DNA of 64,000 bases from Aotearoamyces nothofagi. Taxonomy: Eukaryota; Ascomycota; Leotiomycetes; Leotiales; Tympanidaceae. How positions within the stretch are numbered: the first letter of the stretch is position 1; the number at the start of each line of letters is the position of its first letter. The position numbers and the translations under genes were made by a program. Shown here one piece after another: positions 54,022 through 54,181 of the stretch. The notes below the pieces were generated by a model. The model saw only the letters and a list, made by a program, of their open reading frames with translations. It was not told the DNA's origin and did no database searches. The stretch spans positions 372,001 through 436,000 of the forward strand of contig JADDTR010000002.1 of assembly GCA_015345905.1 (NCBI GenBank). Reading direction: 5' to 3'.

Positions 54022-54060
54022 CCCTCGGTCGTCTAGTTGGTTTATGGCGTCCGGCTGTAA

Positions 54061-54073
54061 TTGAATCAGTCTC
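54061..54073 (+). other. Canonical 13-nt tRNA intron
   Basis: It lies directly 3' of position 37 of the tRNA-Tyr, where the tRNA splicing endonuclease cuts. Placement may shift by a base. Confidence 0.85.
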
Positions 54074-54088
54074 ACCGGAATGTCGCGC

Positions 54089-54144
54089 GTAAGAACGCCC
54101 AAAAAAAAACATTGTTACTCAGTCAGCTGCTAACAGCTGTACAG
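54089..54144 (+). other. 56-nt spliceosomal-type intron inside the tRNA T stem
   Basis: Donor GTAAGA (54089), a run of nine A, branch-site consensus GCTAAC (54129-54134) 11 nt before the end, and acceptor TACAG (ending 54144). Length and signals match the mRNA introns of neighbouring genes (47-60 nt). It falls between T-stem positions 52 and 53, a place where tRNA endonuclease introns are not found in eukaryotes. A shift of one base is possible because G occurs on both sides of the boundary. Confidence 0.85.
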
Positions 54145-54174
54145 GTTCGACTCGCGCCTGAGGGACATGTTTAC

Positions 54175-54181
54175 TTTTTTT
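54175..54181 (+). terminator. Pol III terminator (T7)
   Basis: Seven T residues begin 9 bases after the tRNA discriminator base, a normal Pol III stop. This supports the gene being a transcribed Pol III unit and not a relic. Confidence 0.8.

Follow-up and report, generated by a model that had tools for sequence, protein, structure and literature searches.

The window, as we call the whole stretch of DNA analysed here, is 64 kb long and corresponds to bases 372001-436000 of contig 2. It carries a tRNA-Tyr(GUA) gene at 54022-54165, the sequence and coordinates of which were described correctly in the initial annotation. The features of this gene are as follows.

54022..54060, + strand: tRNA-Tyr(GUA) exon 1, positions 1-37 (acceptor 5' strand, D arm, anticodon)
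54029..54040, + strand: A box TCGTCTAGTTGG, 7 of 8 consensus letters
54061..54073, + strand: ordinary 13-nt tRNA intron after position 37, of the tRNA splicing endonuclease (SEN) type by position (ARAGORN)
54074..54088, + strand: exon 2, positions 38-52
54089..54144, + strand: 56-nt GT-AG insert between T-stem positions 52 and 53, with 5' site GTAAGA and 3' end TACAG
54130..54134, + strand: branch-site motif CTAAC, with the branch A at 54133, 11 nt from the insert end
54144..54154, + strand: B box GGTTCGACTCG of the unspliced gene, its first G being the last base of the insert
54145..54165, + strand: exon 3, positions 53-73 (T loop, acceptor 3' strand, discriminator A73)
54175..54181, + strand: T7 run, a Pol III terminator by its form

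It had been proposed that the gene folds into tRNA-Tyr(GUA) only when both the 56-nt insert and the 13-nt intron are removed, and ARAGORN and a scoring of deletions agree with this. ARAGORN finds no tRNA in the native segment 54022-54165 and, after deletion of 54089-54144, reports a tRNA-Tyr(GUA) with a 13-nt intron. When all deletions of 40-80 nt were ranked by a cloverleaf score, with the ends and the anticodon given, there was a single best product among 1026. It arises from three sliding deletions, one of which is GT...AG. The T7 terminator described 3' of the gene is indeed present. Two other details are to be corrected. The stems had been called perfect except for one G-U pair; there are two such pairs, one in the acceptor stem and one in the D stem, and the latter consists of 3 pairs with the fourth position unpaired. 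The A and B boxes, said to be kept, are both there, but position 9 is a C, which leaves the A box one letter short of its consensus, and the B box borrows its first G from the insert.

A catalogue of tRNA genes was drawn up from this single genome (25,475,336 bases in 55 contigs), which was searched with the family model, for the B box and for the T loop plus terminator, an upstream acceptor stem being sought thereafter. The RF00005 family model gave 29 matches in the whole genome (63 of 791 candidates scored). All 85 sites of the B-box pattern were covered by retrieved stretches, which were read by script. One genome pattern search returned 219 matches, tRNA candidates being taken from the matches listed; another yielded 90 entries, of which six, representing five sites on contigs 22, 29, 31, 37 and 43, were left out. 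Candidates were selected on acceptor pairing, T8 and the T arm, and the intron motif played no part. The genes with a GT-AG insert were then chosen by eye from the candidate listings, while the initiator tRNA-Met (iMet) gene was found through patterns of its own. The catalogue comprises about 59 tRNA genes: 40 plain genes called by ARAGORN (41 distinct calls minus L054, whose 190-nt intron was judged false) and 19 with a GT-AG insert. The plain set takes in five long candidates, to which we return below. Anticodons read by hand differ from those of ARAGORN in several plain genes: L069 and L090 (Phe by ARAGORN) read as Asp, L007/L016 (Arg) as Met, L146 (Glu) as Lys and L150 (Ser) as Val. Val-AAC is absent from the catalogue and, with these readings, so is tRNA-Phe(GAA); having no Phe gene, the catalogue must be incomplete. 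The Phe and Val-AAC genes may be hidden by introns of a similar kind.

At least 19 tRNA genes, about one third of those catalogued and the window's Tyr gene among them, carry a GT-AG insert of 50-67 nt. In 18 of them, Tyr included, the insert measures 50-64 nt, starts with GT, ends with AG and has CTAAC, CTAAT, CTGAT or TTAAC close to its end. That of iMet is 67 nt long, reads GTAAGA...TACTAAT...TTAG and lies within the D stem. This initiator gene is the single genome match of each of two patterns, both of which lead to the same, interrupted gene. The 18 further genes rule out a lone curiosity of one Tyr gene. The insert sites, numbered by hand, are distributed as follows.

8/9: Gln-TTG
9/10: Leu-AAG
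10/11: Cys
13/14: Ile-UAU
18/19: Lys-CTT (two genes) and Thr-TGT
19/20: Gly-CCC
24/25: Ala-AGC and iMet
26/27: Gln-CTG
28/29: His, Ser-GCT and Trp
51/52: Asn and one Ser-AGA
52/53: Tyr
53/54: Arg-CCT and the other Ser-AGA

None of the 19 inserts is at position 37/38, and none lies in the anticodon loop, in the stretch from the anticodon loop to the T stem, in the T loop or in the acceptor stem. Some of these genes, for example Tyr (54061-54073), hold a canonical 37/38 intron as well.

Removal of the insert restores the tRNA throughout the set. As long as the insert is there, ARAGORN identifies none of the 19 tRNAs correctly, making 7 wrong calls among 18 and finding nothing for iMet; after removal it reports a tRNA in 19/19 and the right anticodon in 18/19, Ile-UAU being misparsed with another anticodon. 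Once freed of its insert, the iMet gene is read as a tRNA-Met(CAU) in which each of the four stems is paired. Such a tRNA finder, which misses or miscalls every one of these genes as they stand, may overlook whole families. It must be noted that ARAGORN also accepts many deletions shifted by several bases, so that its verdict alone leaves the boundaries unfixed and a stricter cloverleaf ranking matters. In this ranking the GT-AG product comes first, ties included, in 15 of the 19 genes; in five of these 15 (both Lys, Gln-TTG, one Ser-AGA and Ile) the top place is shared by 2 to 24 products. A single best product exists for 12 genes; ten of these have a GT-AG deletion among the sliding forms of that product, and the other two, Gly and Thr, have none. 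The GT-AG product ranks second in Gly, third in Ala and Thr and ninth in His.

The inserts were compared with 61 distinct predicted mRNA introns, taken from the window and 73 other, partly overlapping stretches (285,795 bases). These had been selected by open frames, GT[AG]NG, a length of 45-80 nt, a branch motif within the last 22 nt, and AG. The median length is 56 nt for the tRNA inserts and 55 nt for the mRNA introns selected at 45-80 nt, GTAAGT is the commonest 5' site in both, and the spacing from branch motif to AG is alike, although this agreement is only partly independent because the selection imposed the same features. GTAAGT and GTAAGC are the most frequent 5' sites of the inserts, intron position 5 is a G in 19/19, and the branch motif is CTAAC, CTAAT or CTGAT in 17 and TTAAC in 2. 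The inserts display the features of U2-type introns: GT...AG together with a 5' site, a branch motif and a host-like length. Short introns with GT and AG also show up in the SDH1 and PEX6 genes, as gaps in their tblastn alignments. By similarity these two host proteins place the fungus among the ascomycetes, in the Leotiomycetes, and not among the basidiomycetes, as had first been supposed: SDH1 is 93% identical to that of Pseudogymnoascus over 87% of the query, and PEX6 is 74% identical to the proteins of Pseudogymnoascus verrucosus and Cadophora, with best matches at 75-77%.

The full pattern (GT[ACT]NG, CTRAY or TTAAC, AG), which was written once the inserts had been seen, is present in 19/19 inserts, and simulated sliding inserts of the same length have it with a mean probability of 1.1e-4. 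It occurs in none of the 23 plain tRNA genes tested, out of 40. Across the whole window the pattern occurs 79 times, no more often than in simulated sequence, where the mean is 82.65, so that a match elsewhere says little by itself. The view of the initial annotation, that the Tyr gene holds an mRNA-type intron in a Pol III tRNA gene, gains from the recurrence of such inserts, which no fewer than 19 tRNA genes contain, and from their resemblance to the 61 predicted mRNA introns. It is strengthened further by the only initiator tRNA gene found, which is interrupted too.

In all 19 genes the unspliced and the spliced form differ by one letter at most in how well their best A and B boxes match the consensus. 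For Trp the site picked by the script overran the gene end; the true Trp B box, CGTTCAAATCG, lies well away from the insert and is the same in both forms. The Cys A box is completed by the insert's own TAG. The kept boxes fit the use of an internal Pol III promoter, with possible chance help from the insert ends. By sequence, then, the features of a working gene are a spliced cloverleaf and internal A and B boxes in the 19 genes, and a T7 terminator in Tyr. No run of five or more T occurs in any of the 19 inserts. This depletion was dropped as evidence for Pol III, the predicted mRNA introns being likewise devoid of T5 (0/61).

It is very improbable that the inserts are non-canonical introns cut by SEN, as in Cyanidioschyzon merolae, the ectopic tRNA introns of which are held to be processed by endonuclease. 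The available parts of two papers (PMC9602550, PMC4033280) document introns in the D, anticodon and T arms of C. merolae tRNAs, all three of which may occur in one nuclear gene, and the D- and T-arm sites recall those found here. Anticodon-loop introns, some of them long, are also frequent in the tRNA genes of the present genome. However, a bulge-helix-bulge, which we take to comprise four central and two inner pairs, is formed at the junctions of 0/19 inserts, and SEN-type introns were rejected on this ground. Moreover, the inserts lie elsewhere than at 37/38, and GT, branch motif and AG are all present in 19/19, though introns of the SEN type require none of the three. Indeed, according to the accessible part of a review, tRNA splicing relies on structure and not on GT-AG motifs (PMC13149111). 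Unlike the C. merolae introns, then, the inserts combine spliceosomal motifs with the absence of a bulge-helix-bulge; from the canonical 37/38 introns of eukaryotes they differ in position, length, motifs and presumably enzyme.

That the inserts interrupt tRNA pseudogenes, having landed by chance in dead copies, is most unlikely too. Insert-free copies do exist for some of the tRNAs. Although a query with the D arm and anticodon of the window's Tyr gene is found once in the genome at up to 3 mismatches, a second, diverged tRNA-Tyr(GUA) gene (L019) lies on contig 20 with only a 12-nt anticodon intron. An uninterrupted copy had been named beforehand as possible evidence against function, and in view of L019 the window's copy could be dispensable or dead. 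Empty-site paralogs, with flanks near-identical on both sides, accompany Leu-AAG (L063 interrupted, L052 empty), Asn (L102, L011) and Ser-GCT (L145, L032), and Trp has a diverged insert-free paralog (L148). Against decay stand the spliceosomal pattern of 19/19 inserts, the cloverleaf restored by their removal, and the initiator Met, Cys, His and Gln tRNAs, for which no other gene was found. No insert-free gene was found in the genome for Cys, His, Gln-CTG, Gln-TTG, Lys-CTT, Gly-CCC, Thr-TGT, Arg-CCT, Ile-UAU, Ala-AGC, Ser-AGA or initiator Met. The close-similarity search, which covered the first nine of these, passed over the diverged L019 and L148 and, with yeast letters, the iMet gene, so that a diverged Cys, His or Gln gene may have escaped it. 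The firmest case for a need to remove the insert is initiator Met. By its sequence the window's Tyr gene is likely functional, less surely than iMet since L019 exists. As to junction patterns, that of iMet has three matches in bacterial records of genome_contigs and none in viral_contigs, where the Lys junction pattern has 11, which we guess to be phage tRNAs.

The empty sites could mean that the insert arrived once the gene had been duplicated, or that the other copy lost it, and might suggest recent introner-like or other mobile elements in place of individually gained spliceosomal introns. This is extremely unlikely, as 18 of the inserts (all except that of iMet), used as queries, gave 18 matches in the genome, each to its own source, and no copy family appears at that sensitivity. 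The introner-like origin put forward in the initial annotation finds no footing in this result; reverse splicing, its other suggestion, is possible. The two Lys-CTT genes (L058 and L098) share their insert site, and their inserts have diverged in the middle with conserved ends. Being unrepeated and differing between paralogs, the inserts look like individual introns of different age. The same Lys(CUU) pair also differs at the anticodon, where a 12-nt intron is present in one gene only.

We therefore favour, with a probability of about 0.9, the reading of 54089-54144 as a spliceosomal intron of the ordinary U2 type that sits in a nuclear tRNA gene, at least 19 tRNA genes of this genome having such an intron. 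From the sequence we infer that the spliceosome removes it, and the transcription, the splicing and the order of steps might be pictured as follows. Pol III, directed by internal A and B boxes that stay usable despite the introns, would transcribe the gene in full. Through its 5' site, branch site and AG the short intron would be recognised by the spliceosome and excised in the nucleus, whereupon the tRNA body could fold. RNase P and RNase Z would then complete the tRNA, with SEN endonuclease and tRNA ligase acting where an anticodon-loop intron is present. It is also fairly probable that the spliceosome serves in this fungal lineage as a second, essential tRNA-splicing machine, and that tRNA genes are acquiring introns at places where the A and B boxes stay unharmed. 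If so, the sole iMet, Cys, His and Gln genes found would yield no tRNA without the spliceosome, and translation would depend on spliceosomal splicing of Pol III transcripts. The spliceosome would then be able to act on Pol III pre-tRNAs, and translation would be coupled to splicing capacity. Such tRNA genes would also let intron gain be watched, for instance by reverse splicing, at the Leu, Asn and Ser paralogs. They would offer a clean setting for this because their exons are short and conserved and some paralogs have empty sites.

The literature searched, which excluded most subscription papers and all bioRxiv preprints, yielded no earlier description of nuclear tRNA genes with spliceosomal introns, and priority is not certain. 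The accessible portions of PMC4090602 and PMC4033280 do not contain the string 'spliceosom'. The nearest precedents are U6 and U3. The available part of a 2017 paper (PMC5832005) describes the introns of fungal U6 snRNA and U3 snoRNA as normal spliceosomal ones, citing Tani and Ohshima 1989 and Canzler 2016, and names U3 and U6 as the sole small structured RNAs then known to be often interrupted by introns. The likeness is that small structured non-coding RNAs, one of them (U6) transcribed by Pol III, contain GT-AG introns with a branch site. In contrast, the host genes here encode tRNAs; their promoters are internal and have to be left intact by the intron, and a second, SEN-type intron is often present in the same gene. 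Spliceosomal introns have reportedly been described in ascomycete rDNA too, by Bhattacharya in 2000 and Rogers in 1993. These are likewise mRNA-type introns in a non-coding, non-Pol II gene, but the genes are Pol I rRNA genes and not tRNA genes.

Several other tRNA and Pol III genes deserve mention. In L020 (contig 22, 218611-219418) three tandem tRNA-Ile(AAU) genes, read by hand, have an identical body and differing anticodon introns; ARAGORN parses an intron in one of the three. The five long candidates of the plain set, L034, L089, L149 and two tandem genes in L164 (contigs 23, 17, 9 and 19, respectively), are tRNA-like, with anticodon introns of 67-92 nt according to ARAGORN. No GT-AG pattern was seen by eye in these long inserts, and the five stand outside the 19. 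The two L164 genes have in common a conserved core that adjoins the anticodon stem. The five may contain unusually long SEN-type introns, or may be other Pol III RNAs with tRNA-like ends. The 5S rRNA gave 16 matches, each spanning model positions 1-120 (47 of 1231 candidates scored). For U6, with 48 of 1604 candidates scored, there were two matches, neither of them interrupted. One, L037, has the normal ACAGAG box. In addition there is L038 (contig 1, 1441107-1441217), a second U6-like gene with ACAUAG in place of this otherwise invariant box, which is perhaps a pseudogene.
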